From NCBI RefSeq assembly GCF_900111165.1, contig NZ_FOGH01000010.1, forward strand, positions 1-64,000: a stretch of 64,000 bases of DNA. The letters run 5' to 3'. A program made the translations under genes and the position numbers. The number at the start of each line of letters is the position of its first letter. Within the stretch, counting starts at the first letter, position 1. The stretch comes from Nitrosomonas sp. Nm51. GTDB lineage: Bacteria > Pseudomonadota > Gammaproteobacteria > Burkholderiales > Nitrosomonadaceae. Positions 2,695-20,965 of the stretch are shown one piece after another. The notes under the pieces are model-generated. The model was not told the origin of the DNA. It worked only from the letters and a program-made list of their open reading frames with translations, and searched no databases.

Positions 2695-4200
2695 ATGGCT
2701 ATTCGTAAAGATGCAAACACGCTCACGCCTGCGGAAAGGCAGGAATTTGTACAGGCAGTCCATACGCTAAAGCAAAGCGGACTTTATAATCAATTTGTAT
2801 TGCGACATGCCAATACGCCAATGGCTGCGATTCACCGCAGTCCTGCATTCCTGCCCTGGCATCGCCGCTTTATTCTTGATTTTGAACGCGAACTGCAAAG
2901 AGTTTCCGGCAATCCGAATCTAGGCCTTCCTTACTGGAACTGGCCAAGCGGCGGGCCAAACGCCTCGATGTGGAATGATGATCTGCTCGGCGGCGATGGC
3001 AATTCGATAACCGGCATTGTTGAAACCGGCCCTTTCCGTTCAGGCCAGTGGCTTGTGATCAACTCGGACGGTAATACCACAGGCCCGCTCAGACGGCAGT
3101 TCGGCCGCTCCGGTGCAAGCACGCTGCCTACGCAGTCTGAAATTTTACAGGTGCTTGGTATAACGCCATACGACAGTTTTCCGTGGAATATCGGCAGTTC
3201 ACCCAGTTTCCGTAATCAGCTGGAAGGCTGGGCAGGGCCTAATCTGCATAATCGCGGTCATGTATGGGTGGGCGGTTCCATGCTGCCGATGACTTCGCCC
3301 AATGATCCGGTTTTTTTCATGCATCACTGCATGGTGGACAAGCTGTGGCATGAATGGCAATTACGTTTTCCAAATCAAGGTTACCTGCCTGTTTCAGGCG
3401 GGCCGTTTGGCCAGAATCTCACGGATGTAATGGCCGGCACGCCCAACAGTCCGGTTGGTTCGAGACCCATTGATATGCTTGACAGCGCCGCTTTAGGTAT
3501 TGAATACGATCAATTGCTGCCCGGCACACCGCAACCGACGCCGCCCGCACAGAATATCACGCAACTGAATGCAAACACAGCACCGGTTCCTGGACAAATC
3601 TCGCAACCCGGAGAAATCGATCTGTTTGAATTTAATCTCGATCAGCGCCGCCATGCCACCCTGGAAACATCCGGAAATTCAGATACCGTATTGACATTGT
3701 TCGGGCCTGACGACTTTACCCGTGAAATCGCAATCAATGATGATGGCGGCAGCAATTTCAACAGCCGTATTTCAATGACGTTATCGGCTGGCACCTACCG
3801 CGCATCTATCCGGTTATTTAGTCCCGGAAGTACGGGCGATTACCAGATTCAGCTCAGCACTGAAACAGGGACGCCGGCGCCGTCCATTCCAGTATTAACC
3901 GTCGATAACCCGCCTTTTGCTGCCGCAATATCCACCGACCGTGAAAGTGATGTCTATCAAATAAATATCTCTACAGCCGGAAGATACCGGGTTGAAACCC
4001 AGGGCACTACTGACGTGTTCTTGTCCGTATACGGACCAAACAGCCAGAGTGCATTCGTCGCAGCCGATGACGATAGCGGCATTGGGTTAAACGCCAGGCT
4101 TATCCTTGAACTGAACCCGGGAAGCTATTTTGCAGCGGTACGGCATTTCTCAGCTTTGGGCAGAGGCGCGTATCAAATCCGTGTTGTTCGATTGACCTAG
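2695..4200 (+). CDS. Tyrosinase (type 3 copper) with two C-terminal PPC-like beta domains
   Basis: Tyrosinases oxidise phenols and diphenols to quinones with O2 at a two-copper site. The CuA region is seen at residues about 37-70: FVLRHAN, AAIHRSPAFLPWHRRFILDF, with the second and third His in the usual H-x8-H spacing. CuB is seen at about 180-222: NLHNRGHVWVGG and then NDPVFFMHHCMVDKLWHEWQ. After residue about 300 there are two similar domains of about 95 residues (PGEIDLFEFNL then DTVLTLFGPD, DDGGSNFNSRISMTLSAGTY; and DVYQINIS then DVFLSVYGPN, DDDSGIGLNARLILELNPGSY). These match the bacterial pre-peptidase C-terminal fold usually found on secreted enzymes. No Sec signal is visible, so export would need another route. 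AGGAGA precedes the ATG. Its TAG stop lies in the CTAG target of the adjacent MITE. Confidence 0.9.
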   Translation: MAIRKDANTLTPAERQEFVQAVHTLKQSGLYNQFVLRHANTPMAAIHRSPAFLPWHRRFILDFERELQRVSGNPNLGLPYWNWPSGGPNASMWNDDLLGGDGNSITGIVETGPFRSGQWLVINSDGNTTGPLRRQFGRSGASTLPTQSEILQVLGITPYDSFPWNIGSSPSFRNQLEGWAGPNLHNRGHVWVGGSMLPMTSPNDPVFFMHHCMVDKLWHEWQLRFPNQGYLPVSGGPFGQNLTDVMAGTPNSPVGSRPIDMLDSAALGIEYDQLLPGTPQPTPPAQNITQLNANTAPVPGQISQPGEIDLFEFNLDQRRHATLETSGNSDTVLTLFGPDDFTREIAINDDGGSNFNSRISMTLSAGTYRASIRLFSPGSTGDYQIQLSTETGTPAPSIPVLTVDNPPFAAAISTDRESDVYQINISTAGRYRVETQGTTDVFLSVYGPNSQSAFVAADDDSGIGLNARLILELNPGSYFAAVRHFSALGRGAYQIRVVRLT

Positions 4201-4468
4201 TACTCTACCAATATGATATTGCCGGGTACAGCGTTACCGTGGTGTTATGCAGTAAGGCACAGCACGCTGGAAAGGGTTGTTCCCTTTTCACAAGTACTGA
4301 ACGCAGTTGCCAGAGCACCACGGTAGCGCCCTGTCTGTGGATGAGCTTGTCAGCGTCCATGGTCTGCGTTGCGCCTTTTGATAATAGAACAGTTATTGCC
4401 TGCAGGGCACGTCTTGCCATGCACACTGACAAGCGCACTGAACCCGGCAATACCATATTGATAGAGTA
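4201..4468. repeat. MITE copy A (CTAG-targeting family), 268 bases
   Basis: Both ends carry near-identical 27-base inverted repeats: 4201-4227 (TACTCTACCAATATG...) and 4442-4468, which on the other strand reads TACTCTATCAATATG..., two mismatches in 27. The flanks are CTAG (4197-4200) and ATAG (4469-4472), a slightly decayed four-base target duplication. There is no transposase inside. Further copies are at 17226-17392, 27490-27564 and 30269-30294. The left CTAG supplies the tyrosinase stop codon. Confidence 0.85.
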
Positions 4469-4472
4469 ATAG

Positions 4473-5306: not shown

Positions 5307-6824
5307 ATGAAAATTCGATTTTTACCGAAACTTTTGATGTTTGCATTGCTGATGGGTTTAACAATCATTGCTTTGGGAGCCAGCCACCGTGAAGCGCCGC
5401 TGATCGCACTGGATCCGGCTGCCGACAACACCGATGTGTATGCTTTTCGAAGCTGGGAAGATCCGGGAAAGGTCGTTTTTATTCTCAACACCATACCGGG
5501 ACAGGACCCGGCAGACGGACCGAATTATTTCGCTTTCGACGATGATGTTCTCTACGAAATCCATATTGACAACAATCAAAATGGCCGGGCCGGCGATATT
5601 GTTTATCAGATCAGGTTTGAGACCGAAACCCGGCCGGCGCTCGGTTCACTGAATTTTCCGTTGCCATTTGTAGGCAACCCGAATATTGCGGTCGCCGAAC
5701 TTCAGGGTATCACAGCTTTAGACGGCGCAGGATCAGAAGGATTGACGCGCCGTCAAACCTATACGGTGACCGAAATACGCGGCCACAAGCAGCAGAAACT
5801 TTTCGAGAACCAGATATTGATCGCGGTGCCGTCGAACGCGGGGCCCGCAACCATGCCGGATTACGAGGCTTTAGCGGCGCAAGGCATTTACCGCGACGGC
5901 AATACCGGCATTCGTATCTTCGCCGGTCAGCGGTACGAGACGTTTTATATTGATCTCGGCGCGGTTTTTGACACAGTCAATCTGCGCCGCCCGGTGCCGG
6001 CACTGACACCGGAAGAAGACGCTAACGATCATATTAATCCCTTCGGGATCAACCGCTTCAGCGGGTTTAATATCAACAGCATAGCCATTGAAATTCCGAT
6101 TGAGCGCATTACCCGGGATCAGCAGACGGCGGAAATGACGCAATCGCCGGTTATCGGCATGTATGCATCAACAAGCAGGCAGCAATTACAAGTCTTGCGA
6201 AAAAACGGAAAAAACATACAAGCCGGAAAATTTATCCAAGTCTCCCGGATGGCGAACCCGCTGGTGAATGAGTTGATCATCGATACTCCATTCAAGGACC
6301 GGTGGAATGCATCCGAGCCGGAAGATGAAATGCAATTTGAAGAATTTTATAAGGCACCTTCTCTTGCCACGGCGCTTAATTTGATTTTTGGATTGCCAGT
6401 TCCCGAAACACCGCGCACTGACTTGATGCAAATTTTTCTGAAATATCCAGGACAATCGGTGCACGGCGCTAGCTGCGGCTCGCCGTGTGCGGAACTGCTA
6501 AGACTGGATGTCAGCGTCCCGCCCACCGCGCCGCATGACCAGAAACGCCTGGGCGGGTTGGCGACGCCGCCGGATCCCGCCGGGTTCCCCAACGGCCGCC
6601 GTCCCAATGACGATGTGACGGATATTGCGGCGCGCGTCGTAGGCGGCCAGGCATTTGTGGAGGCTCGTGTCGGCGATGGCGTTAACTTTCTGGAGGATGC
6701 GCCGGGTTCCAATTTAACAACAAATGGCATTTACACGATTTTCCCATTTCTTCCGACACCGCAGGATGGCCGCAACCGCCGCCATATCGATTGCGATGAA
6801 ATGGACGCTAATTCATGCAATTAA
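5307..6824 (+). CDS. Exported DUF4331 family protein
   Basis: The product has 505 residues and a Sec signal peptide (KLLMFALLMGLTIIALG) with mature start near ASHREAP. The opening SHREAPLIALDPAADNTDVYAF and the following 'DDDVLYEIHIDNNQNGRAGD' calcium-loop-like stretch are hallmarks of DUF4331, a family whose function is unknown. The C-terminus has two Cys pairs (GASCGSPCAELL and HIDCDEMDANSCN) that may form disulfides outside the cytoplasm. A clear AAGGAG lies 11-16 bases before the ATG. It is followed at 97 bases by a TPR protein and a HupE/UreJ-type membrane protein. I know the DUF4331-TPR-HupE order as a recurring gene set in proteobacteria, which suggests a joint but undefined role. Confidence 0.85.
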   Translation: MKIRFLPKLLMFALLMGLTIIALGASHREAPLIALDPAADNTDVYAFRSWEDPGKVVFILNTIPGQDPADGPNYFAFDDDVLYEIHIDNNQNGRAGDIVYQIRFETETRPALGSLNFPLPFVGNPNIAVAELQGITALDGAGSEGLTRRQTYTVTEIRGHKQQKLFENQILIAVPSNAGPATMPDYEALAAQGIYRDGNTGIRIFAGQRYETFYIDLGAVFDTVNLRRPVPALTPEEDANDHINPFGINRFSGFNINSIAIEIPIERITRDQQTAEMTQSPVIGMYASTSRQQLQVLRKNGKNIQAGKFIQVSRMANPLVNELIIDTPFKDRWNASEPEDEMQFEEFYKAPSLATALNLIFGLPVPETPRTDLMQIFLKYPGQSVHGASCGSPCAELLRLDVSVPPTAPHDQKRLGGLATPPDPAGFPNGRRPNDDVTDIAARVVGGQAFVEARVGDGVNFLEDAPGSNLTTNGIYTIFPFLPTPQDGRNRRHIDCDEMDANSCN

Positions 6825-6920
6825 CAGTAGGCGGGTCAAGAGGCCGGGCAGGTGAAACACACGCACCTGTCCCGTCCGGATGCGTGAAGACACAACGATT
6901 AAATCAGTAAGGTGCCGATA

Positions 6921-8162
6921 ATGATTCAACATATTTCAATCAGCTACGTCACGGCAGCTTTCCCTACAGGATTCGGAACACCGGGTTATGTAGCGCATTT
7001 GTTTATTTTAAGCTTGATCGTTTCCGGTCAGATGCTTTTTACTGCAACGCCCTACGCGGCGCCGTATATTCCTGACAACGATGCCGTCGTACTGCAAAAA
7101 CTTCCGGCGTCTGGCAATGCCGGCATGCAAACGCTCGGCCGGTTGCGCAATGCATTGTCAAAATCACCCGCAGACCTGACACTCGCCACAGAATTTGCGC
7201 GCGGTTATCTGCAAATGGGGCGGATCATGGCCGATCCACGTTATGACGGATATGCGCAGGCTGCGCTCAAACCCTGGTGGGACATGCACCAGCCGCCACC
7301 GGAAGTGCTTGTGTTACGAGCGATTGTGCGGCAGCGCCAGCATGATTTTGTTCAAGCGCTCGATGACCTAAACCGGGCGCTGCAAATGCAGCCCGTCAAT
7401 GTTCAGGCCTGGCTGACGCAGGCCGCCATTCATCAGGTGCGCGGAGACTATCGGGCAGCTTATCGAAGCTGTATGCCGCTGTTGCGCTTGAGCAGCAACC
7501 TGCTGGCAACAGCATGTATCGCCAGTGTGTCAAGTTTGAACGGCCGTGCACATGAAAGCTATCGGATCTTACAAAAAGCAATTGAACAAGCGCCCGCTGC
7601 GGCGCCGCAGGAAAAACGGTGGGCACTGACAATTTTGGCGGAAACGGCCGCTCGTCTGGAAAAATACCATGAGGCGGAACGCTATTTCCGGGCGGCGCTT
7701 GCTGGCGAACGGCACGATCACTATCTATTGGGGGCATACAGCGACTTTCTGCTGGACCGGAACCGGCCGGAAGATGTACTTGATTTGCTCAAGAAAACCA
7801 CCCAATCCGACGGCTTACTGCTGCGTCTGGCGCTGGCGGCCCGGAAAGTGAATGCGCCGGAACTCGATATCTATATCGAAACGCTTAAAGCGCGCTTTGC
7901 CGCCACCCGGCTGCGCGATGAAACCAGGCATCTCCGGGAAGATGCGCGTTTTACGCTGAATCTTTTGCGCCGGCCCGAACGAGCACTCAAACTGGCGGTG
8001 GATAACTGGCGCACGCAGCGCGAACCCCGGGATGCGCGCATTCTGCTGGAAGCAGCCTTGCAGCATGGCGGCCGCGCGGCGGCGCAACCGGTGATCGACT
8101 GGATCAGATCGGTTAATCTGGAAGACAGTCAACTGAACAAACTCATGGAGCAATTGTCATGA
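6921..8162 (+). CDS. TPR-repeat protein of the DUF4331 cassette
   Basis: The frame opens with a GTG at 6912, but the ATG at 6921 is better placed behind TAAGGTG. About 413 residues: an N-terminal hydrophobic segment (HLFILSLIVSGQMLF) that is probably an uncleaved signal or anchor, then helical repeats. Clear TPR-type stretches are DFVQALDDLNRALQMQP, VNVQAWLTQAAIHQVRGDY and KYHEAERYFRAALAG. It is likely periplasmic or membrane-anchored, acting as a protein-protein adaptor. Its stop overlaps the start of the next gene by four bases (ATGA), so the two are translationally coupled. A hairpin (GGGCAGGTG with CACCTGTCCC, about 6853-6878) lies in the spacer upstream. Confidence 0.75.
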   Translation: MIQHISISYVTAAFPTGFGTPGYVAHLFILSLIVSGQMLFTATPYAAPYIPDNDAVVLQKLPASGNAGMQTLGRLRNALSKSPADLTLATEFARGYLQMGRIMADPRYDGYAQAALKPWWDMHQPPPEVLVLRAIVRQRQHDFVQALDDLNRALQMQPVNVQAWLTQAAIHQVRGDYRAAYRSCMPLLRLSSNLLATACIASVSSLNGRAHESYRILQKAIEQAPAAAPQEKRWALTILAETAARLEKYHEAERYFRAALAGERHDHYLLGAYSDFLLDRNRPEDVLDLLKKTTQSDGLLLRLALAARKVNAPELDIYIETLKARFAATRLRDETRHLREDARFTLNLLRRPERALKLAVDNWRTQREPRDARILLEAALQHGGRAAAQPVIDWIRSVNLEDSQLNKLMEQLS

Positions 8163-9304
8163 ACCGCCACTTCGGTTTTATTTCCATCGGCATCCTGCTT
8201 TTTCTGCTCAGCGGTCACACGTCCGCGCACAAAGCCAGCGACAGCTATCTGCGTTTCAAAATGGAGAACGGCGCGATTCAGGCGCAGTGGGACATTGCAT
8301 TGCGCGACCTGGATTACGCCATTGGGCTGGACAATAACGGCGATGGACGGATTACATGGGGCGAGTTGCGTGTCCGGCATCAGGCCGTTACCGAATATGC
8401 GCTCTCCCGCTTGCAAATACACGGCGATGGCTCCCGCTGCCAGCCTCAGATTCCCGGGCATCTGGTCGATCACCATACCGATGGAGCTTACGCCGTACTG
8501 CGCTTTGCAGTGATCTGCCCGACCGCCATTGACACCTTCGAAGTCGCGTACGGCTTGTTGTTCGATCTGGATTCGCTGCACCGCGGGCTGCTGCAGGTCG
8601 ATGTCAATGGCCGGGTGCAAACAGGCGTATTGAGTCCCGGGCAACGGAAAATCCGCCTGGATCTTGGCAATAGCGCACCCTGGCGCGAATTTTTGCAGTT
8701 CGGGCGGGAAGGTGTATGGCACATCTGGATTGGTTTCGATCATATTCTTTTTCTCGTCAGCCTGCTTTTACCCGCCGTTCTATGTTGGCAGGCCGGACGC
8801 TGGCTGCCCCGGTACTCTTTGCGCCTGGCCTTGTGGGAAGTATTTAAAATCGTAACCGCCTTCACTATCGCGCATTCCATCACGTTATGCCTTGCCGTAC
8901 TCGGTTTGGTGAGCCTGCCTTCGCGCTGGGTGGAATCGGTCATCGCCGCATCGGTGCTGCTGGCCGCACTGCATAATCTCTACCCGGTTATCCGCACACG
9001 CCTGTGGGTGATGACGTTTATTTTCGGGCTGATTCACGGCTTGGGCTTCGCATCGGTATTAATCGATCTGGGTTTGCCCGGACAATCGCTGGCGTTCGCG
9101 CTCGCCGGCTTTAATTTAGGTGTGGAGGCCGGACAAATCGTGATTGTCGGCTTGTTTGTTCCACTGGCATTCATGCTGCGCCACACCCGGTTTTACCAGC
9201 GATACGTACTGCGCTTCGGCTCGGTTTTAATCGCGTTAATTGCCGGTATCTGGCTGGTGGAAAGAAGCATGGAGCTGGATTTGGGGCTGCCGGGATTGAT
9301 ATGA
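8159..9304 (+). CDS. HupE/UreJ-family membrane protein
   Basis: The product has 381 residues. A signal peptide (FISIGILLFLLSGHTSAHK) is followed by an extracytoplasmic domain of about 170 residues with an EF-hand-like DNNGDGRITWGEL loop, probably a calcium site. The second half has six or seven membrane segments with the conserved HupE/UreJ_2 motifs: GFDHILFLVSLL, TAFTIAHSITL, FGLIHGLGFASVL and LAGFNLGVEAGQI. The His and Asp residues in these segments are those thought to handle metal (nickel/cobalt) in UreJ and HupE proteins. No urease or hydrogenase gene is nearby, so the metal role here is not shown. Coupled to the TPR gene by ATGA overlap. Confidence 0.85.
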   Translation: MNRHFGFISIGILLFLLSGHTSAHKASDSYLRFKMENGAIQAQWDIALRDLDYAIGLDNNGDGRITWGELRVRHQAVTEYALSRLQIHGDGSRCQPQIPGHLVDHHTDGAYAVLRFAVICPTAIDTFEVAYGLLFDLDSLHRGLLQVDVNGRVQTGVLSPGQRKIRLDLGNSAPWREFLQFGREGVWHIWIGFDHILFLVSLLLPAVLCWQAGRWLPRYSLRLALWEVFKIVTAFTIAHSITLCLAVLGLVSLPSRWVESVIAASVLLAALHNLYPVIRTRLWVMTFIFGLIHGLGFASVLIDLGLPGQSLAFALAGFNLGVEAGQIVIVGLFVPLAFMLRHTRFYQRYVLRFGSVLIALIAGIWLVERSMELDLGLPGLI

Positions 9305-9415: not shown

Positions 9416-12238
9416 TTACCGCCTGGTTTTATCAAAAGCGAGATCCGGTTCGCCCACTTCTGCCAGCATGCGGCTGCGCGCGAAGTCGCGCAACGCCACG
9501 GCCGTGTCCCAGACATTCGTTTTCGCCAGCTGATTTGGATAGACGGCCTCGCCGATAGTAACCGAAATCGGGCTACGGTGCGGCAGCCAGGAGCCAAAAC
9601 GTAAAACGGAGCGGGTGCCGCGGATGATAACCGGCACCACTGGAATAGCGGCCTCTGCGGCTGCCACAAACGCACCCATGCGAAACGGCATCAGACCGGG
9701 AACCCGGCTAAAAGTGCCTTCAGGGAAAAACAAAATGGAACGTCCCTCAGCTGCCGCATACGCGATTTTTTTTGCATCCGCCGCACTTTTTTGCATGTCG
9801 AAACGTTCAACGAATTCACATCCGATGCGGCGCAGGAAATTTCCCGCGATAAACTGCCGGTCGAGTTCCTGCTTGACAATAAAACTGACCGGCTTCGGCA
9901 GTGCATGCACCATGATCAAACCATCCAGATAACTGGCGTGATTGCTCACCAGTACGCAGGATGTGTTGCGGTCATGCAGATGTTCCAGTCCTTTGATGCT
10001 AACCGGCGTAGCCGTGATGAAAGCAAGTGTTTGCGTGCTCAGGCGAATAAGTTTCCAACGCCATGACAGCCGCGGGATGCACAGCACCAATAGCCATGTC
10101 GGTACCGCCAGAAATAACAGCGCCAGCCAGGCATAAATTGCATAACTCAACGCTTCCAGAGACTGTTTCCAGCGGCGCAGTTGCGGCGCTAATGATACGC
10201 CAAGCAGGCGCAGAACTTGCAGCAAAGGCGTGCGCGGCGGCATGGTGACGGAACCCTGTTCATACATTTCCCGGCATGCAGCGCGCCTGATTTTGCCGCT
10301 CGAAGTTTTCAGAACACAGTGAGGCGGAGCCAGCACGATGTCATCGGGCGGGGCGCCGGTCAGCATGATGACGATGTTGTTGATTTCAGCGCGAACACGC
10401 TCCAAGCTATCTGAAGCAGTTTCACGGGTTTCGGCGAGCACAATGAGGCGTTCGGTCCCAATTTCACGGCTGGTGCTGCCGAACACAGCGATGCAGCCTC
10501 TGCGAACGCCGTCGACTTCGTTAATGGCGTCCTCGATTTCATGCGGATAAATATTCCGCCCCGCGTGAACAATAATGTCTTTTTGCCGCCCGGTAATATA
10601 CACCTCTCCATCAGCGATATAAGCAAAATCACCTGAATTCACCCAGCCATTATCGAAAAGCGCCTTGTTTTTTTCAGGATTACGATAATAACCGCTGGTT
10701 ACGGAAGGTCCCCTGAACTGCAGTAGGCCTTGCCGCCTTTCCGGCAGTTCATGTCCGGCTGCGTCGATGATGCGAATTTCATGATCGCTCAGCGGCTCAC
10801 CGCAGGACACAAAGTACAATGCATTTTCATCTTTTTCTGATGGAATTGCGCGGGCGGTCTTCATGAAATATTCCCGGTCAATTTTATCCACGCGCGGCCC
10901 CCGGCCGACCGGTGGAAAGGAGAGTCCCACGGAACATTCGGCCAGACCGTAAACCGGCATTAACGCCTCTCTTTGAAGACCATAAGACCCAAAACGCGCA
11001 TAAAAACGTTCAAGCGTGCTTGGCATCACCGCTTCGGCGCCGTTGAAAACCGCTCTGAGGGAATCCAACCGCAACCCTTCAAGATCCTCGTCCCGTATCC
11101 TTTTAAGACAAAGCTCGTAGGCAAAATTGGGGGCTGCCGTCAATGTCGCCCGGTTGCGGTGCAAGGCCCGCAACCAACGTTCTGGCTTGGCCAGAAAAGT
11201 CAGCGGTGACATGACTATCAGCAGTGCCGAGAAATAGAGGCTTCCCAGCCAAGCACCGATAAGTCCCATGTCATGATAAAGCGGCAACCAGCTGACAAAA
11301 ACATCACTGGCATCCACTTCGACATGTTCTCCCATGGCGCGGATATTGGCAAGAAGGTTTGCATGAGTCAAGGTGACGCCTTTGGGTTTACCGGTACTGC
11401 CCGAGGTATACTGGAGTAGCGCAATGTTTTCAGGCACGAGTAACGGAAATAAAACGCGCCCTTGCGTCACCTGTAATTCGGCCGGCGTGATCACTGTTTG
11501 CAAGGTTTCAATCTGCAGCTTCAGCAAGCGTGCCACCGCTTTTGCCTCCGGCACGGTAATTAGCGCCACGGCACGGCAGTTCTGCAGAATGCTGCGATGG
11601 CGCAGCAGGTGATCCTCCAGCTGGTTCAAACGCAACGGCGGGTAAATGGGAACCGGGATGGCGCCGGCGATAAGAATGCCGAAAAAGCTCAAAAAATAAT
11701 CACGTCCGGTCGGCAGCATCAGGGAAACGGTATCTCCTGTTGTTACTCCAAGCTTTTGCAATCCCGATGCGATGCGCTCCGCTTCTGCTTTCAGATCTCC
11801 GTAGGTAATGATTGTTTCTTGTTCGTCATCACCATAGAGCCTGATATGAGGACGGTTAGCATGCATTTGTACATGCCAGTCAAGCATATCAACCAATGTA
11901 CCAGCTGAGTGGGGCGCCGTTACCGTTGGTTCAAGTGATAATACTTCCAGCGTATGATCAGTCTGGGTCTGTTGTACTGTGCCGGCATTCAGAATCGCGC
12001 GCAGCAATTCACGCGGGGTGTCAACGGCAGCGAAAACGCGATCAGATAACTTGACACCGAAATGCCGCTCTATGCGGTTTATAAATTCAACGCGGGCCAA
12101 GCTGTCGAGGCCAAGATCCTTATCGAAGCAACTATCCAGGCTTAGTGCATCCATACTTCTGGGGCGAAGTTTTAACTCCTTTCCCAAGCCGCGAATAATT
12201 TCGATCAATTCAATAGCTTTCCGTTCTTCTGCCGACAT
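9416..12238 (-). CDS. Acyl carrier - fatty acyl-AMP ligase - acyltransferase fusion
   Basis: Three enzymes in one chain. Residues 1-90 are an acyl carrier domain with the phosphopantetheine Ser in DLGLDSLARVEF (Ser46). Residues about 125-650 are an adenylating ligase: the P-loop is LQYTSGSTGKPKGVTLTH and the LPLYHDMGLIG motif is typical of fatty acyl-AMP ligases rather than acyl-CoA ligases. After a hydrophobic stretch near 720-770 comes a PlsC domain with NHASYLD and FPEGTFSR catalytic and binding motifs. The likely chemistry is to activate a fatty acid as acyl-AMP, load it on the fused carrier, and transfer it to a lysophospholipid or other acceptor at the membrane. The frame is open to 12334; the ATG at 12238 (MSAEERKAIE) is preferred because the carrier domain begins there. 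Confidence 0.85.
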   Translation of the reverse strand: MSAEERKAIELIEIIRGLGKELKLRPRSMDALSLDSCFDKDLGLDSLARVEFINRIERHFGVKLSDRVFAAVDTPRELLRAILNAGTVQQTQTDHTLEVLSLEPTVTAPHSAGTLVDMLDWHVQMHANRPHIRLYGDDEQETIITYGDLKAEAERIASGLQKLGVTTGDTVSLMLPTGRDYFLSFFGILIAGAIPVPIYPPLRLNQLEDHLLRHRSILQNCRAVALITVPEAKAVARLLKLQIETLQTVITPAELQVTQGRVLFPLLVPENIALLQYTSGSTGKPKGVTLTHANLLANIRAMGEHVEVDASDVFVSWLPLYHDMGLIGAWLGSLYFSALLIVMSPLTFLAKPERWLRALHRNRATLTAAPNFAYELCLKRIRDEDLEGLRLDSLRAVFNGAEAVMPSTLERFYARFGSYGLQREALMPVYGLAECSVGLSFPPVGRGPRVDKIDREYFMKTARAIPSEKDENALYFVSCGEPLSDHEIRIIDAAGHELPERRQGLLQFRGPSVTSGYYRNPEKNKALFDNGWVNSGDFAYIADGEVYITGRQKDIIVHAGRNIYPHEIEDAINEVDGVRRGCIAVFGSTSREIGTERLIVLAETRETASDSLERVRAEINNIVIMLTGAPPDDIVLAPPHCVLKTSSGKIRRAACREMYEQGSVTMPPRTPLLQVLRLLGVSLAPQLRRWKQSLEALSYAIYAWLALLFLAVPTWLLVLCIPRLSWRWKLIRLSTQTLAFITATPVSIKGLEHLHDRNTSCVLVSNHASYLDGLIMVHALPKPVSFIVKQELDRQFIAGNFLRRIGCEFVERFDMQKSAADAKKIAYAAAEGRSILFFPEGTFSRVPGLMPFRMGAFVAAAEAAIPVVPVIIRGTRSVLRFGSWLPHRSPISVTIGEAVYPNQLAKTNVWDTAVALRDFARSRMLAEVGEPDLAFDKTRR

Positions 12239-12539
12239 GGTCCTATAGCCCGCACCGTGCGGTGAGTTTAACTGTCTGATAATATTTCGATATGAAAATT
12301 TAGTGAAAGTTCTGCGAGAGAAATGGCGAATCACGCAGGCCGGCCGGTCCGTTTTTTTGAGTGACAGTTCTGATTTTGTGTTGTTGCGGGGTTATATCAT
12401 CATTTATTCCAAAATCCGGGCATACCTATTCCATCAATCGTTAGGACTGAAGACTAAAAATGGACCAAAGGGCTTTCACATGACGGCACTCCTAGCTGAT
12501 TCGCTGTCAGAACAGGAATGCCAAACATCAAATGGCACA

Positions 12540-13147: not shown

Positions 13148-14836
13148 ATGCAGAGCCTGCATTTAAAAATTACTTATCAATTGATTGTTGCGATAGCATG
13201 CGTTCTCGGCAGCGTAATCGCAAAGGCCGGCGATATTCAGCCGCATTGCGCGTATTTGCCGGTCGATATCGGCAAATACGGCAAGCAGCCGTTTCGGAAT
13301 CCGCCGGAAATCCGTGCGAAGAACGGCAAACTGGACGCCACGCTTACCGTTCAGTATACCGATGCCGGTACCGCCACATTGGGTGGTTGTCCGCTGAAAC
13401 TGCGCACCTATAACGGCGAGCTAACGGGGCCGACGTTACGGGTCAGTCAGGGCGATACGATCAACCTGATGCTGAAAAACAGACTGCCGGTGGAAACGCC
13501 CGACCAAATCCAGGCACAGTTCGAACAGGAAAACCGGAACGCCTATCTCGACACCACGCCGGCTTCGTACAATACCACCAATGTGCATTATCACGGCATG
13601 CATGTCTCGCCTGTCGGCAACAGCGACAATGTGCTGCTGGCGATCCCGCCGCAAAGCGAGTTCGGTTATGAAGTGAAAGTGCCGGCCGACCACCCGATCG
13701 GCTCGTATTGGTACCATGCGCATGCACACGGTTCGACCGCGATTCAGGTCGGCAGCGGCATGGCGGGCGCGTTGATCGTCGAGGACGATCCAAAGGCGAT
13801 ACCCGCGGCGCTGAAAGCGGCCAACGCCAACGAGAAAATCTTTGTGCTGCAGACGATTCTGTACGACCAGCAGGGCGAACTCAACAACATCACCAGCCTG
13901 TTCCCCGGTCCGTCGAACCCGACACCCCAAAACTGCAACGATCAGGGCGCGATGGATACCTGGCATTGTTCGCGCCGTCATATCACCATCAACGGGCAGA
14001 TCGTTCCGATCATCACCATGAAACGCGGTGAAGTGCAGCGCTGGCGGCTGATCGACACCGCGTTCCGCGAATCGATTTTCTTTGCTGTCGAAGGCCATGA
14101 TTTGCATGAGATCGCGCTGGACGGCAATTATCTCGGGCGTGTCGACACCTGGAAAGCCGGCACGCCGATCGAACTGCAATCGGGTTACCGCAGCGATGTG
14201 CTGATCAAGGCCGGTAACAAGCCTGGAGACTACCGCATTCTCGATCAGGCTGCTTCCAGCAAGAAATCGCTGCGTCAGATCAACGAACCGGAAAATCTGC
14301 TGGCCATTCTGAGAATTACCGAAGAAACGAATGACATGGTGCTGCCGACCAGCAGGGAGATGGCGCCGCTCGCGCCATTTGGCGATACCGACTTGCGCAA
14401 GGAGGCCTTGGGCGTGCAGGAAGTCGTATTCAAGCTTGGTCAGGACGCAAAAGAGAAGAAAAACTACTTTCAGGTCAATTACCGCGCGTTCAATCCGAAT
14501 CATGTGCGCCAGCTTGAACTCGGCGCGGTCGATATGTGGTCGTTGACGACTGCCGGCGACCCGGCAGCCATTCCCAATCCCATCCCGCCGACACCGCATG
14601 TATTTCACATCCATGTTAATCCGTTCCAGTGGGAACGGCACGGTCCCGATGGAAAGCCGCAGCTGGTCTGGAAAGATACGCTGCTGGTACAGGGGCCTGC
14701 GGTGACCAACATCTACACAAAATACCGCGATTACATCGGGAAATTTGTCATACACTGCCATATCCTCGATCACGAAGACCTGGGTATGATGGAAGTGCAG
14801 GAAGTCGTCAATACGCCGGTTGCACAGACGCATTGA
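13148..14836 (+). CDS. Multicopper oxidase (laccase-like), exported
   Basis: The product has 562 residues with a signal peptide (YQLIVAIACVLGSVIAKAG). All four copper-binding motifs are present: NVHYHGMHVSP, YWYHAHAHG, HVFHIHVNPFQ and IHCHILDHEDLGMM. The last contains the type 1 Cys, the flanking His and a Met axial ligand. It should therefore be an active three-domain laccase-type enzyme in the periplasm, oxidising phenols, aromatic amines or metal ions with reduction of O2 to water. A strong GAGGAGG lies 9 bases before the ATG. It is followed at 193 bases by a tyrosinase and then lodA/lodB-type genes, so it probably belongs to a cluster of copper and quinone oxidases. A metal-detoxifying role (CueO/CopA-like) is an alternative, but no Met-rich segment is seen. 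Confidence 0.92.
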   Translation: MQSLHLKITYQLIVAIACVLGSVIAKAGDIQPHCAYLPVDIGKYGKQPFRNPPEIRAKNGKLDATLTVQYTDAGTATLGGCPLKLRTYNGELTGPTLRVSQGDTINLMLKNRLPVETPDQIQAQFEQENRNAYLDTTPASYNTTNVHYHGMHVSPVGNSDNVLLAIPPQSEFGYEVKVPADHPIGSYWYHAHAHGSTAIQVGSGMAGALIVEDDPKAIPAALKAANANEKIFVLQTILYDQQGELNNITSLFPGPSNPTPQNCNDQGAMDTWHCSRRHITINGQIVPIITMKRGEVQRWRLIDTAFRESIFFAVEGHDLHEIALDGNYLGRVDTWKAGTPIELQSGYRSDVLIKAGNKPGDYRILDQAASSKKSLRQINEPENLLAILRITEETNDMVLPTSREMAPLAPFGDTDLRKEALGVQEVVFKLGQDAKEKKNYFQVNYRAFNPNHVRQLELGAVDMWSLTTAGDPAAIPNPIPPTPHVFHIHVNPFQWERHGPDGKPQLVWKDTLLVQGPAVTNIYTKYRDYIGKFVIHCHILDHEDLGMMEVQEVVNTPVAQTH

Positions 14837-15029
14837 CATATACCTGTTCAAGATCTCGCTGAATAGTGCATCACTGCGCTAAAATCGAACTTAAGATGCG
14901 TGCGCACTTTGTGTATGCTCCGCTTTTTCGCCAGGTTTTGCCTGGCACTGCTCTTTTGATCGAGACTAGGTCCAGCCCGCAATCAACCAACCGTGGCTGG
15001 CGGCCGGTCATGTACATTCGAGGTGAATT

Positions 15030-17225
15030 ATGAATGACAGAAAAAAACTGTCGCGTTATCAGCGCGTGCAGCAGATACTGGATCAATCGCAGGGACCGTG
15101 CATTCCCGATTATCAGGGGCTCGGCGCTTTCTGGCGGGATTTAAATACGTTCAAAACAGCCGAGCTGTACGGGCAGCGCCTGATCGCACCTGAGTCTGAT
15201 GAATCCGGTCATCAGCCGGTCAACGCCGGCGATAAAAGCTGTTGCGGTGACGGCGGCGGTGTGGTCGATTCACTTGCCGCCAGCGAGTCGGCATTGAATC
15301 AGGCGCTGATTCCCGGCGGCAGCGCTGCAACTGTGGGTGAGTGCTGGCCGACCGGCGGCAAGAATCCGGCCAAACAGACAGCAAGCAGCCCCGCAGGCAG
15401 TAGCGACCAAACCGCAGGCCAATCACAGCAGACACGCAGCGACCGATCCGCCCTGATCAAAGGCCTGCGCAAACAGTTTCCTTTCGACGGCAGCCAGTTT
15501 CCGCCGTTATTATGGCAGACGGAAAATGCGGTCAGTCCTTCGGATATCGACTTTATCGCAGCATGGATCGATGACGGCTGTCCCGAAACAGACGGCCCTC
15601 AAGACAGTGCAAAGATAAGCACCGGCGCGTCAATACTGGCCCTGGCCAGAGGCGATGCGTTGCATACGGTCTCCGCCAAGCATTGCAATGCTATCAGCGA
15701 TGATGTACAGGGCTTGAAGGTCAGAAAAGAGGTGAGCACGCTGTCTGCAAATGAACTTTCGCTGCTGCGCGAGGCGCTGGCCTGCATGTACACCTACGAT
15801 CCGCATATCTTCGATGAGCGCAGTTTTAACTACTGGGCGCGCATCCATACCGATTCGTGTCAGCATGGCTGGGAACAGTTTCTGCCGTGGCATCGGCTTT
15901 ATCTGTATTTCTTCGAACAAACGCTGCAGGATTACGATGCATGTATCACGTTGCCCTACTGGTCGTGGAACGATTACGCCGACGTTAATCGCGCGACGTT
16001 TAATACGGAGCAGCTGGATATTGGTGTACTGCCAGGAGCGTACGGTTGCTTTCTCGATGCTGCCGGCCTTGCGGCGCTGAAGGACAGCAAGCTGTTCAGC
16101 GACAGCGAACTGGCCAATCTCGCCAGGCTGCAGAAAAAAGGAACAGTCTATAACTCCGGCCTGCGTTTTCTCAAAGCGGCCAAAGTTGATTTCACTTTGA
16201 AGCTCAGCGCCGGCAAGGTGATGTGGTCGGATCAAGTCGACGCGATTTATGCCGAGCTGCGCCGCGCCAATCCGCTGTGGTTTCCGAACCGCTGGCCGGG
16301 GTCGCTGGGCATTGCAACGCATTATCCCACTGCCGCGGATGTGCAGGGCATTCTGTCTTCGAACAACTGGAATCAGTTCGGCGGCGGTCCCGTATACGAT
16401 CATCATTTTGGCTGGCTGGAAGAAATGCATAACGGCATGCATAACTTCTCAGGCGGACAGAACCCCCTGTTTTTATCGGCTGCCAAAGCCATTGGCGTGG
16501 ATAATCCCGACCCGCAAAACAGTTTCAATCCGAACTACGGCTACATGACGGATAACCGCGTCACCGCTTTCGATCCCATTTTCTGGGCGCATCATTCGAA
16601 TGTTGACCGGCTGTGGGCTGTCTGGCAGGAGATGCGTCCCGGCCTTAACCCGGAAGGCCTGGACGGCATCTTGCCGCCCTGGTCGATGAATGTCGGCGAT
16701 ACGCTCAGCACGCGCAAACTGGGTTATGAATATATGCGCGACACTTATCATTATCCCGTAAACGGCCAACAGGGATTGTTGCGGTTCAACGCTGAAAAAG
16801 CCGGTGTTAAGCCGCAGGTGCTGGATACCTTCCGTAAAGCAGAGATACGTCTGCACCGCATGCATGTCGCCAATCTGTTCAACGCCGTCATTCGCGTATT
16901 CCTCAACGCGCCGGACGCCACGGTCGCGACGCCGGTAGACAATAATCGGCATTACGTCGGTCAGGTGACCACGTTTCACGGTTCGTGTTATGGCGGCCCC
17001 GGGCATTGCGATAAACCGCTACCCAGGACGCGCAGATTTGACCAGCGGCCTTTGCAGCATCATGCGCCGCGCAACTTCCGTATCGATGCAACCGAGGCGG
17101 TGCAGCGCATGCTGGCCAACGGCGAGACCGATATCAGCGTGCATCTGGTTGTCATGGGTCTCGATGGCAAACCAATCGACGACGCGGTGTTTATCGACGG
17201 CGTTTCTCTTGATTTCATGGACTAG
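15030..17225 (+). CDS. Large tyrosinase with an extra N-terminal domain
   Basis: The product has 731 residues. Residues 1-190 are unlike the other tyrosinase here: a helical start (RYQRVQQILDQ), a Cys pair (KSCCGDGGG), a low-complexity Thr/Ser/Gln linker, and a segment FPFDGSQFPPLLW...FIAAWIDDGCP. The type 3 copper core follows. CuA is IHTDSCQHGWEQFLPWHRLY, where a Cys two residues before a His matches the Cys-His thioether arrangement of fungal tyrosinases. CuB is HNGMHN and then FDPIFWAHHSNVDRLWAVWQ. A C-terminal beta domain follows (residues about 610-731). No signal peptide is visible. CGAGGTG precedes the ATG. Product quinones may feed pigment formation or cross-linking. The TAG stop is inside the CTAG target of MITE copy B, which separates it from lodA. 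Confidence 0.9.
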   Translation: MNDRKKLSRYQRVQQILDQSQGPCIPDYQGLGAFWRDLNTFKTAELYGQRLIAPESDESGHQPVNAGDKSCCGDGGGVVDSLAASESALNQALIPGGSAATVGECWPTGGKNPAKQTASSPAGSSDQTAGQSQQTRSDRSALIKGLRKQFPFDGSQFPPLLWQTENAVSPSDIDFIAAWIDDGCPETDGPQDSAKISTGASILALARGDALHTVSAKHCNAISDDVQGLKVRKEVSTLSANELSLLREALACMYTYDPHIFDERSFNYWARIHTDSCQHGWEQFLPWHRLYLYFFEQTLQDYDACITLPYWSWNDYADVNRATFNTEQLDIGVLPGAYGCFLDAAGLAALKDSKLFSDSELANLARLQKKGTVYNSGLRFLKAAKVDFTLKLSAGKVMWSDQVDAIYAELRRANPLWFPNRWPGSLGIATHYPTAADVQGILSSNNWNQFGGGPVYDHHFGWLEEMHNGMHNFSGGQNPLFLSAAKAIGVDNPDPQNSFNPNYGYMTDNRVTAFDPIFWAHHSNVDRLWAVWQEMRPGLNPEGLDGILPPWSMNVGDTLSTRKLGYEYMRDTYHYPVNGQQGLLRFNAEKAGVKPQVLDTFRKAEIRLHRMHVANLFNAVIRVFLNAPDATVATPVDNNRHYVGQVTTFHGSCYGGPGHCDKPLPRTRRFDQRPLQHHAPRNFRIDATEAVQRMLANGETDISVHLVVMGLDGKPIDDAVFIDGVSLDFMD

Positions 17226-17392
17226 TGCTCTACCAATATGATATTGCCGGGTTCAGTGCGCTTGTCAGTGACCATGGTGTCCTGCGACTGCGTTACAGTA
17301 CTTGAAAAGAGAACAACCCTTTCCTGCTGTACTGTGCCTTGTTGCATAACACCATGGTAACGCTGTACACGACAATATCATATTGATGAGTA
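17226..17392. repeat. MITE copy B (CTAG-targeting family), 167 bases
   Basis: Left end TGCTCTACCAATATGATATT and right end, read on the other strand, TACTCATCAATATGATATTG form inverted repeats. The element is flanked by perfect CTAG duplications at 17222-17225 and 17393-17396. It is an internally shorter relative of copy A. It sits exactly between the tyrosinase stop codon and the ribosome binding site of lodA, and may affect their co-transcription. Confidence 0.88.
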
Positions 17393-17413
17393 CTAGACTT
17401 GGAGAAAATAAAC

Positions 17414-19609
17414 ATGCAAACGTTTAAAATTCACCCGGCCATCGGCTGCGCGCGCATTGGCAACAGCGACGAATTTTACCTCGCGCCCGAACAGACCGGC
17501 GCACTGCCGATCGAATGCGATGACCGGGGACGGGAAGTCGTCGACGAGAAAGGGCTGCCTGTTCGCGTGAGCCAGTTTAAGGAGGCGGGTAACTTTGGCT
17601 GTATCAAGCGCCAGGCGGCGCGTTTTCGCATTTTTGTATATGGCGGAAACCAGCTCGACAGCGACCGGGAATTGAAGATCGGCGATAAATTCCAGTTTCC
17701 ATTGAATACCTCAACAACCGGACCGCAAATGGTGGAAGGCACCGTTGTCGATATCGAATGGACCGTGCATCTGGCCAACAAAAAGGCATCATGGTATGCA
17801 TTCAGCGAAAATGACGGCATGCACGGCTACGGCCCCGATCATCCGCTGCGTAATCCGCAGGTGACGCAACCCGACCGGCGGCGCCAGTTGATTATCGATC
17901 CGGGGCCGCGCACGGTTTCCGGCAATGATGGCCAGGCGTCGTTTGCACAAAATAACGGCAACGCCTACCCGCAGCGTTTTCCGCCACCGGATATCCAGCC
18001 ATACAACATCACCACGCTTGGCGAAATGATGGTCAATGAAGACAACGATAATCACCGGCGCCTGATTGTGCTGGGCGGCTACGGCCGCTCCGGTTACAAG
18101 GATGCCGACGGCAATACGATACCGGTTATCAGCAATTACGCCAATAATGACGGCTGGTATGACGATGTTTCCGACGGGCCGGTGCGCGCGAAAATCAGGT
18201 ACAGCTATATCCACCGTTATACCGACGCACAGGGCAAACCGGTCAGAAAGAAAAAATTTTCGTTTTATGAAGTGGACGCGCCCGCCTGGCTGCTGGTTGG
18301 CTATCCATCGTATGCGCCGGAAATCGAAGACATGATTACCATGGATGAAGCGATTTACGACTTATCGGTGCGTCATTTTGCTTATGATCCGGCGGTTTAC
18401 GGCGTCGTCCCCTTCGACCGGCAGAGCAACCAGCCGCAGACAGCGGAACAATGGGCTGTATGGCGCAGCGATGCCTCCTATAACCCGGATTACTATCCCC
18501 GTTTTTTCAGGGACATCTGGCCTATGTTCAACCGGCCGGAGAATTACAGTTTTACCTACGATTTCGACCCGTTCGGCGGCGGCATGCCGCATAACCGCGG
18601 TACCGGTGGCAACCTCGACAAAACGGCGCTGTCGCAGCCGCCAAAAAACGGCCATGATCCCAGCCGCCAGCATCGCGCATTTATCTATGCGGTCATGCGT
18701 AAACAGGGACAGGAGAATCTGTATACCGTTCCTGACGACTTAAGCGCGCAATATGTATCCTCATTTCATAACTCAGCCTCAAAACCGCGCCTGATGCCGA
18801 TGCTGAACGGCAACAATCCCATCAGTAACACAGTGACGGATAAGTTTCTGCGCATGACCGATACCCAGCTGTTTTTCTTGAAACAGTGGAAGGACGGCAA
18901 ATTCATCAACGAATGCGACGAATGGGGTGAAGGCAATACGGCCTGCGACAACCCCTGGACCGCCCCACCGAAGACCGGCAGCGCGATCGACCGCGGTGTA
19001 CTGGGCAATGTGCTTGGCGGCGCTTTCTGCCCCGGCGCTGAAGTCGGATGGATCATGCTGAATCCGGCCATTTACAGCAGTGCATACCGTATCCATCAGG
19101 CTGCATATATCGCTGGCGGCCTCAGTATTCCCGCGCCGGTAGCAATTAAGGACGGCAGCCAGGCCGACGATATTGCCAGAGGCATGGAACCAGGCGATCT
19201 GACCAAATACATGGGGCTACCGTGGCAGGCGGATTTTCATGAATGTACCGATCAGAACATCAATGTCACCTACGAAATGTGGAACGACATATATCCCGGC
19301 AGCACCGGCGATCCGGCCAAACAGAATACTGCCTACAACATTCCCTGGTGGCCCGGTCACCGGCCAATGGTGATCCAGAAGGCAAGCGGCGGACAGTATT
19401 ACTGGGCATCGGGCATTCCCGATAATTACGCTGGCGGCGTGCAGATGGTGCGTGACTGGGCCAATCTTGGGTTTATCAAATTTGAACCGAACGACGGCAA
19501 CCCGGGCTACTATCAGATAGAACGCAACGATCAGGCGCTCGGACCGCAGCTTCAGCCTGGACAGCGAACACTGGGTGGTGAAATAAAAGAGGAATCAAAC
19601 AATGAGTGA
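17414..19609 (+). CDS. lodA: LodA/GoxA-type quinoprotein amino acid oxidase
   Basis: LodA-family enzymes oxidise amino acids (lysine epsilon-amine, or glycine in GoxA) to aldehyde, ammonia and H2O2 using a cysteine tryptophylquinone made from their own residues. The start FKIHPAIGCARIGNSDEFYL is the family signature. The cofactor pair is visible: Cys539 in GGAFCPGAEVGW and Trp604 in GLPWQADFHEC, 65 residues apart, the same separation as Cys516 and Trp581 of Marinomonas LodA as I recall it. The ATG at 17414 is used because GGAG lies just upstream; a TTG at 17399 is in the MITE flank. No signal peptide. The substrate cannot be read from sequence. The partner lodB-type gene follows after a small ORF. 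Confidence 0.9.
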   Translation: MQTFKIHPAIGCARIGNSDEFYLAPEQTGALPIECDDRGREVVDEKGLPVRVSQFKEAGNFGCIKRQAARFRIFVYGGNQLDSDRELKIGDKFQFPLNTSTTGPQMVEGTVVDIEWTVHLANKKASWYAFSENDGMHGYGPDHPLRNPQVTQPDRRRQLIIDPGPRTVSGNDGQASFAQNNGNAYPQRFPPPDIQPYNITTLGEMMVNEDNDNHRRLIVLGGYGRSGYKDADGNTIPVISNYANNDGWYDDVSDGPVRAKIRYSYIHRYTDAQGKPVRKKKFSFYEVDAPAWLLVGYPSYAPEIEDMITMDEAIYDLSVRHFAYDPAVYGVVPFDRQSNQPQTAEQWAVWRSDASYNPDYYPRFFRDIWPMFNRPENYSFTYDFDPFGGGMPHNRGTGGNLDKTALSQPPKNGHDPSRQHRAFIYAVMRKQGQENLYTVPDDLSAQYVSSFHNSASKPRLMPMLNGNNPISNTVTDKFLRMTDTQLFFLKQWKDGKFINECDEWGEGNTACDNPWTAPPKTGSAIDRGVLGNVLGGAFCPGAEVGWIMLNPAIYSSAYRIHQAAYIAGGLSIPAPVAIKDGSQADDIARGMEPGDLTKYMGLPWQADFHECTDQNINVTYEMWNDIYPGSTGDPAKQNTAYNIPWWPGHRPMVIQKASGGQYYWASGIPDNYAGGVQMVRDWANLGFIKFEPNDGNPGYYQIERNDQALGPQLQPGQRTLGGEIKEESNNE

Positions 19610-19781
19610 TGTGGTGGACGGTATACCACCCATTCTGGTGGGAATCTGGACTTACCGGAGTTTTCTGGGCAACCCCGATGTCGACGCCGATTTCGATTCG
19701 CTGGAATTCGGGCGCGGCAATATCCGTATCGATCCGGGTCCGATGCAAATTTTTTCGGGCCTGATTTATGGCCTCGGCTGA
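19602..19781 (+). CDS. 59-residue ORF between lodA and lodB
   Basis: The ATG at 19602 overlaps the last eight bases of lodA and is preceded by AAAGAGGA in the lodA 3' end, a good ribosome binding site. The product contains VGIWTYRSFLGNPDVDADFD, then LEFGRGNIRIDPG and IFSGLIYGLG. The WTYRSFLGNPD pattern resembles the start of small beta-rich proteins I associate with amino acid oxidase and tyrosinase gene clusters, usually longer than this one, so it may be a shortened version. A frame shift near 19768 would add another 20 codons. It could be a helper in cofactor maturation, but this is a guess from position only. Confidence 0.55.
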   Translation: MSDVVDGIPPILVGIWTYRSFLGNPDVDADFDSLEFGRGNIRIDPGPMQIFSGLIYGLG

Positions 19782-19813
19782 GGAGATGGCGCAATGGCTC
19801 GCTGTTAAACAGG

Positions 19814-20965
19814 ATGGCAACGGTTAATCGATTGCGCCGGCGTTACGATGTCATCATTGTTGGCGCCGGCATCGCAGGCTGTGCTACTGCTATCGCGTTG
19901 TTACAACAAATACCCAATCTGTCCGTGTTATTGCTGGAGCGCAGCAGCAGCGTATCGCGACCCTTTCGCATCGGTGAAACATTGCCGCCGCAGACGATGC
20001 TGCTATTGCAGCAATTGGGATTATCGGAAAGTTTTCTTGCGCGTGGCGATATGGCCGCAATGGGAACCCGTTCCATCTGGGGCAGCGTGCAAGTCCATGA
20101 ATACCCGTTCTGGTTTTCCTGTTACGGTCATGGCTGGCATATTGACCGGACATCATTTGACAGCTGGATGGTCCGGCATGCCGAACGCGCAGGCGCAACG
20201 GTTATTTTCGGGTCAACGCTGACGGGGACTCAAAACTATCGTCACGGCTGGCGCGTGACGGTTCACCGTTCAGCCGCTTCAACTGTAACCTTTGAGACAG
20301 CGCTGGTAGTCGATGCAAGCGGGCGCGGCAGCGCATTCTGCCGTAAGCTGGGCTTGCGGGCGAACAAACTCGATAGGCTGACGGGGATCTTCCGTTTTTT
20401 TCAGGATGAAGAAAATGATACGGCATGCGGCGATGCCAGTTTCACACTGATCGAAAGCGATGTGGCCGGCTGGTGGTATTCCGCGCGCTTGCCGCAGGGG
20501 CAATGGATCGCGGCACTGATGACCGACAGCGATCTAGCCCGGGATATGGATGTGCTTGGTGAAACAGGATGGTTCAAGGCTCTGGTAAACACCAGTTTTA
20601 CGCGAACCCGGTTTGAGAAAAAAACACCGCTTTCGCCATTGCAGGTTAAACCGGCGCGCAGCCAGTGCCTGCAGCAATTCTGCGGGCCTGGGTGGTATGC
20701 CGCAGGCGATGCGGCTTGCGTCTTCGATCCACTTTCGTCGCTGGGCATATTCAAAGCCCTGCGTCATGGCCTGCTGGCCTCCTATGCGATCAGGGATGAA
20801 TTACAGGGCAAGCCGGACGCAATATCGAAATACCAGCATCTGCTCGAATCGGAATTTAAGCAGTATCAGCACACACGCCGTCAGTATTATCAGCTTGAAA
20901 AACGTTTTGTGCAGGCGCCGTTCTGGCAAAGACGGCAGCAACAGAAGCATCCAGGGGGTGCATAA
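19814..20965 (+). CDS. lodB: LodB-type FAD-dependent maturation protein (halogenase-like fold)
   Basis: The product has 383 residues. The FAD-binding Rossmann motif is at residues 11-22 (VIIVGAGIAGCA), followed by LLLERSSS at the end of the second strand. Further along are VVDASGRGSAFCRKLG and WYAAGDAACVFDPLSSLGI, the GD/FDP flavin motif of the tryptophan-halogenase/geranylgeranyl-reductase group. In Marinomonas, LodB is needed to form the tryptophylquinone of LodA, probably by hydroxylating the Trp; the location here right after a lodA homologue supports the same role. The halogenase-specific WxWxIP pattern is not seen. AACAGG lies just before the ATG. No signal peptide, consistent with cytoplasmic action. 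Confidence 0.85.
   Translation: MATVNRLRRRYDVIIVGAGIAGCATAIALLQQIPNLSVLLLERSSSVSRPFRIGETLPPQTMLLLQQLGLSESFLARGDMAAMGTRSIWGSVQVHEYPFWFSCYGHGWHIDRTSFDSWMVRHAERAGATVIFGSTLTGTQNYRHGWRVTVHRSAASTVTFETALVVDASGRGSAFCRKLGLRANKLDRLTGIFRFFQDEENDTACGDASFTLIESDVAGWWYSARLPQGQWIAALMTDSDLARDMDVLGETGWFKALVNTSFTRTRFEKKTPLSPLQVKPARSQCLQQFCGPGWYAAGDAACVFDPLSSLGIFKALRHGLLASYAIRDELQGKPDAISKYQHLLESEFKQYQHTRRQYYQLEKRFVQAPFWQRRQQQKHPGGA

Follow-up and report, generated by a model that had tools for sequence, protein, structure and literature searches.

The 64,000 nucleotides analysed here (the window: positions 1 to 64,000 of contig NZ_FOGH01000010.1 of Nitrosomonas sp. Nm51) carry, between positions 13148 and 20965, a cassette of oxidase genes for which we see about even chances of its being the Nitrosomonas copy of the group ID lod operon. 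Such an operon would comprise a pathway core, formed by a tyrosinase (TyrB), a LodA-like oxidase, a small barrel protein and a LodB-like flavoprotein, often together with an exported redox protein, which is here a multicopper oxidase (MCO). The co-directional MCO, tyrosinase, LodA-like and LodB-like genes reported in a preliminary description were confirmed by profile matches and active-site residues, and the host is indeed an ammonia oxidiser, as the genome belongs to an AmoA-bearing Nitrosomonas relative. The gene order was found in 12 of 14 relatives; its absence from related genomes, named in the preliminary description as a ground for refutation, is thereby not borne out. Two features had been overlooked: the beginning of a fifth gene, which lies between lodA and lodB, and a repeat element with inverted ends inserted between tyrB and lodA. 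Compared with N. marina Nm71, the ratio of nonsynonymous to synonymous substitution rates is 0.098 for the MCO, 0.087 for TyrB, 0.079 for LodA and 0.190 for LodB; these four genes are thus under purifying selection despite the broken small gene and the inserted repeat. The earlier idea of a cooperative oxidative system in a chemolithotroph holds to the extent that a gene set is co-inherited under purifying selection, whereas its novelty, its equivalence to the system of Marinomonas and the constancy of the MCO do not stand.

The constant core and the group ID lod operon

A scan of named genomes yielded 221 loci with a LodA relative, of which the best 80 were kept, 65 inside the clade holding the LodA of the window and 15 outside. 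Loci cut by a contig end were left out feature by feature, as were the second, distant LodA of L068 and, from alignment A4, L091, which holds masked residues. Inside the clade, a tyrosinase lies directly upstream of LodA in all 57 testable loci (55 by script, L097 and L114 from coordinates, the stop-to-stop LodA frame overlapping TyrB there), compared with none of 14 outside, and this arrangement spans Pseudomonadota, Bacteroidota, Acidobacteriota and one planctomycete. The small gene adjoins LodA in 55/64 loci inside the clade and 0/14 outside; it is missing from this place in L074, L078, L080, L081, L082, L093, L100, L117 and L127, among which L081 and L127 hold it elsewhere in the cluster. 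LodB follows downstream of LodA both inside (54/59) and outside the clade (12/13). The MCO, which the preliminary description had treated as a fixed part of the set, was rejected as a constant core member, since it occurs within 3.6 kb upstream in only 22 of the 51 testable clade loci (0/12 outside). Mutually related open reading frames (ORFs) of DJ-1/PfpI type were also seen in nine loci (one tested) and might serve to deal with reactive carbonyls.

The operon type had been thought undescribed, and it corresponds to "group ID" of Campillo-Brocal (2015, PMC4417212). According to the accessible part of that paper, the 11 members of this group have tyrosinase and MCO genes, all but one have a small gene before lodB, and a functional link was proposed; the bearers include Bradyrhizobium japonicum USDA6 and Nitrobacter hamburgensis X14, and the main text contains no word starting with Nitroso-. 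The window shares with group ID the succession of MCO, tyrosinase, lodA-like gene, small gene (138-142 amino acids there) and lodB-like gene (PMC4417212, in part), and has both the tyrosinase and the MCO gene in the operon. It differs in that the small gene between lodA and lodB is truncated to a 59-codon remnant and in that a repeat element separates tyrB from lodA; furthermore, a nearby upstream MCO is lacking in over half of the clade loci that could be tested for it. Rhizobium ruizarguesonis p4 and Mesorhizobium huakuii p_3 share the order MCO, tyrosinase, LodA/GoxA-family oxidase, hypothetical protein and FAD oxidoreductase, but their LodA is only 40% identical and their operons lie on plasmids, the oxidase of M. 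huakuii p_3 being annotated as two coding sequences. The Rhizobium plasmid operon also holds a DJ-1/PfpI-type gene, and a radical SAM gene (L133, 13034-14416) lies downstream of the Mesorhizobium plasmid cassette.

Among the papers listed by literature searches (Nitrosomonas with LodA or CTQ, and tyrosinase and melanin in ammonia oxidisers), none had a title on the cassette in Nitrosomonas. Tyrosinases in ammonia oxidisers are as such not new, mTyr-CNK being from the archaeon Nitrosopumilus. That enzyme is treated in PMC5722948 (seen in part).

The enzymes, the repeat element and the broken small gene

The LodA-like oxidase (17414..19609, forward strand, with an alternative TTG start at 17399) passes LodA_N (PF17990) and LodA_C (PF18417) with 178.7 and 141.2 bits (cut-offs 26.3 and 25). 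Its C539 and W604, which the preliminary description had rightly recognized at the family spacing, are invariant in 7/7 aligned sequences, align with the corresponding residues of LodA and are predicted to form the cysteine tryptophylquinone (CTQ) cofactor. The best match in the PDB is the Marinomonas-type L-lysine 6-oxidase (2ymw, 3weu), and the lysine 6-oxidase equivalog of NCBIfam was missed (338 vs 600 bits). The LodB-like flavoprotein (19814..20965, forward strand) is a predicted tryptophan hydroxylase and maturase of LodA; LodB is its best NCBIfam model, although under the equivalog cut-off (267 vs 400 bits), GoxB (215 bits) and QhpG (172 bits) are also under theirs, and its PDB matches include peptidyl tryptophan dihydroxylase 7ctq.

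TyrB (15030..17225, forward strand, 731 amino acids) is a type-3 copper tyrosinase whose six histidine ligands and tyrosinase fold bear out the intact CuA and CuB sites described earlier. It begins with a partly disordered part carrying a CC motif, followed by the tyrosinase core (about 228-570) and a beta-rich C-terminal part with CxGGPGHC; its N-terminal 223 amino acids have no match in Pfam or NCBIfam, and the alignment left out 18 of the 58 TyrB rows. The laccase-like MCO (13148..14836, forward strand), an accessory partner of the cassette, has three cupredoxin domains (Pfam Cu-oxidase_3, Cu-oxidase and Cu-oxidase_2) and all four copper motifs, as had been claimed, and a hydrophobic N-terminus read as a Sec-type signal. 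It remains below the NCBIfam equivalog cut-offs for laccase (50 vs 559 bits) and for CueO (102 vs 525 bits), the latter being nevertheless its best model.

The repeat element, which resembles a miniature inverted-repeat transposable element (17222..17399, limits approximate, strand unspecified), is matched by 105 pieces in the same genome, although many of these pieces are halves of a single copy. Only 3-21 bases separate the aligned ends of TyrB and LodA in the 13 relatives that have both genes. Another copy (4197-4472) directly follows a second tyrosinase gene (2695-4200, forward strand), with a MelC2-like core (275 bits, cut-off 450) and a PPC domain. This upstream tyrosinase had already been noticed, and it is present; that it belongs to the set is not shown, because only short cross-matches to TyrB were obtained in the relatives' stretches. 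A third tyrosinase match of the genome lies within an 867-amino-acid open frame (G000, contig C106, 3235-3705; L050, L051).

The truncated small gene (19602..19781, forward strand) consists of the first 59 codons of the barrel protein followed by a stop; about 0.22 kb of the middle is deleted and a remnant of the tail persists after the stop. All 14 relatives have a gene of about 138-148 amino acids at the same place, damaged in two of them by an internal stop (G011) or by the loss of the first 15 positions (G019). The protein is predicted from structural models to be a streptavidin-like (avidin-like) barrel, and model m9eff99b75e0b matches avidin and residues 176-283 of 1jmx_A, a barrel domain of quinohemoprotein amine dehydrogenase (another CTQ enzyme), equally well. 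No match was found for two members of the family in Pfam or NCBIfam, nor among PDB sequences by profile search. Away from LodA, the small protein is fused to a PvdP-like tyrosinase (one case), lies near PvdP-like genes (three) or adjoins a tyrosinase (two) or an MCO (two), which makes a copper enzyme its probable partner. In the fused relative, the part that aligns to PvdP starts about 30 residues ahead of the point where the barrel ends. A direct comparison of the family with the PvdP N-terminal alignment gave no match (hhalign, 0.9%), and PvdP is not among the 50 fold matches listed for the small protein, which proves nothing. In 369 genomes drawn from the class, the family occurs in two, both of the same genus as the window; those in G759 and G099 were not counted, as they are too weak or partial. 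The fusion gene (L151, 7719-9817), in a genome of the same genus, lies directly 3' of an intradiol-dioxygenase-like gene. In three genomes of a sister genus (L148, L149, L150), the barrel gene lies near paired PvdP-like ORFs and a trypsin-like ORF, and these stretches also hold an ORF composed of numerous short repeats of the type RGYPGYTSLEA or RGYGGYPSLEA.

Exported partners, distribution and neighbouring genes

Among the clade loci, 23 without an MCO carry instead members of a protein family that bears a CxxCH haem motif and is for the most part exported. These putative cytochromes c, seen at L061 (13798-15432) and in 24 further loci, including one copy beside a LodA outside the clade (L124), have no match at cut-off in Pfam (three members tried) or NCBIfam (members tried). 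Over all 65 clade loci, 24 have the MCO only, 23 the cytochrome only, one both (L075) and 17 neither; in the 35 loci that extend over more than 7.5 kb ahead of LodA and 5 kb behind it, the figures are 12, 20, 0 and 3, respectively. As strict alternatives the two were not upheld, since the tree offers only four independent pairs (median p of the sign test, 0.25), and their alternation as partners is a suggestion only. On a simple hydrophobicity scale, a signal-like N-terminal stretch is found in 18/26 MCOs and 23/25 cytochromes, and in none of 58 TyrB, 54 small proteins and 64 LodA. Since the core proteins show no recognisable export signal and most of the MCOs and cytochromes show one, the chemistry may take place in the cytoplasm, with a later step outside.

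LodA of this kind was found in 15 of 125 genomes of the family, nine with the lineage of the window and six with a second lineage; this count leaves out G093 and G113, whose distant LodA-like loci (about 30% identical) have no TyrB or MCO in the stretch. The two Nitrosomonas LodA lineages are 39-49% identical, depending on the alignment. The 82-row LodA tree was built by a quick method with support from the Shimodaira-Hasegawa-like approximate likelihood ratio test only, and several long branches were flagged. In this tree, the tyrosinase-linked LodAs form one clade (support 94), the lineage of the window groups with Bacteroidota, mostly Flavobacteriaceae, and one gammaproteobacterium (support 100), and the second lineage groups with Methylobacter tundripaludum (support 100) inside a methanotroph group. 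The MCO of the window is 72-90% identical to the MCOs of both lineages, which share 72-79% identity with each other and about 73% with the MCO of M. tundripaludum (73% for that of the window). As LodA lineages of different affinity thus lie beside closely related MCOs, the cassette would either have entered the genus at least twice or have been exchanged beside one MCO.

Divergent from the MCO is a gene (9416-12334, reverse strand) for a 972-amino-acid fatty acyl-AMP ligase-like protein with carrier-protein and acyltransferase domains, which is not adjacent to the cassette in any of the 14 relatives. Further upstream, genes for a DUF4331 protein, a TPR protein and a HupE/UreJ-like membrane protein stand in a row (5307-9304, forward strand) and may form a separate operon. 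Rfam and tRNA scans of the window gave no match.

Possible pathway and rival explanations

By analogy with LodB and QhpG, the LodB-like flavin monooxygenase would hydroxylate Trp604 of LodA, which would then join Cys539 to form CTQ. LodA, to judge from its family, would oxidatively deaminate an amine, probably other than free lysine, to an aldehyde or keto product with release of ammonia and H2O2, and the dicopper site of TyrB, whose active-site residues are present, would convert a phenol into an o-quinone. H2O2 can convert met- to oxy-tyrosinase, a general trait of tyrosinase chemistry, and that released by LodA could serve this purpose. One fusion and several gene neighbourhoods suggest that the small barrel may be a partner subunit of TyrB, comparable to the N-terminal barrel domain of PvdP. 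More speculatively, the quinone might couple with the amine or aldehyde in the cytoplasm, a place proposed because none of the four core proteins shows a recognisable export signal. Further oxidation of the product might then occur outside, by the exported MCO or, in other loci, by a cytochrome c. The secretion of Marinomonas LodA (PMC2855505, accessible part) weighs against a cytoplasmic site. Because the barrel gene of the present genome is broken, the pathway may be decaying there or may do without the barrel.

A more specific version of this pathway, which we consider quite unlikely, would see the core as a two-subunit PvdP-like tyrosinase (TyrB and the streptavidin-like barrel) which, together with a dedicated CTQ oxidase, acts on a single peptide or protein and couples an o-quinone to an oxidised amine to yield a quinone-derived chromophore, cofactor or metal chelator. 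PvdP, the pyoverdine maturation tyrosinase (PDB 6eys), likewise combines a barrel with a tyrosinase, and one fused relative of the small protein carries a PvdP-like tyrosinase domain. However, TyrB is only a distant tyrosinase, and PvdP acts in the periplasm (PMC9569983 and PMC6206403, both in part).

The comparison initially drawn with Marinomonas mediterranea, in which LodA would be a secreted lysine oxidase making H2O2, the tyrosinase would form melanin and the MCO would be a polyphenol oxidase, seems quite improbable for this cassette. The enzyme classes of LodA/LodB, the PpoB1 tyrosinase and the PpoA laccase are the same, with the same spacing of CTQ residues, the three enzyme classes are co-regulated there (PMC4417212, in part), and a Marinomonas-type oxidase is the best PDB match of LodA. 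But in the accessible part of the same source these genes are not in one operon, the lod operon there being lodA and lodB only, and cultures of Saccharophagus, a bearer of group ID, are without lysine oxidase activity (unpublished observation of its authors). M. mediterranea LodA is a proven lysine oxidase and the tyrosinase of that species has as its partner PpoB2, a putative transmembrane copper-transfer protein (PMC2855505, in part), whereas the protein of the window falls well short of the LodA equivalog and both it and TyrB are without a recognised export signal. Lysine oxidation, melanin and antibacterial action are unsupported for the cassette.

LodB alone is sufficient for Marinomonas LodA on co-expression, which counts against an unlikely alternative in which TyrB, with or without the small barrel, would be a second maturase oxidising a tyrosine or tryptophan of LodA, the operon making one enzyme and not a pathway. 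The association of TyrB with the LodA clade of the window and not with the 14 testable others, the near contact of tyrB and lodA in 13 relatives and the similar barrel fold of quinohemoprotein amine dehydrogenase all favour it; the Marinomonas lod operon without further genes (PMC4417212, in part) and the small protein beside copper proteins where no LodA is nearby do not. A loose stress or detoxification cluster, whose copper oxidases, independently of LodA, would clear phenols, Cu(I) or other substances that inhibit ammonia oxidation, is equally unlikely in our judgement. It would agree with CueO as the best, though distant, model of the MCO, with the patchy occurrence of LodA in the family and with the inconstant MCO, but poorly with a TyrB directly before LodA over three phyla and a planctomycete.

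The group ID lod operon entered the literature in 2015, with no function for its small gene and, at that time, no reported oxidase activity (PMC4417212, accessible part). The comparison made here defines its constant parts, predicts a fold for the small protein, points to a copper enzyme as its likely partner and reveals naturally broken copies; as far as the literature was searched, this fold and partner, the 57/57 rule and the alternative exported partner are additions to what was known. The cassette is now placed in Nitrosomonas as well as in methane oxidisers; copper is needed by the main enzymes of these organisms, both groups being dependent on copper monooxygenases. If the PvdP-like two-subunit tyrosinase were real, its presence in ammonia and methane oxidisers would make a copper-handling product possible.
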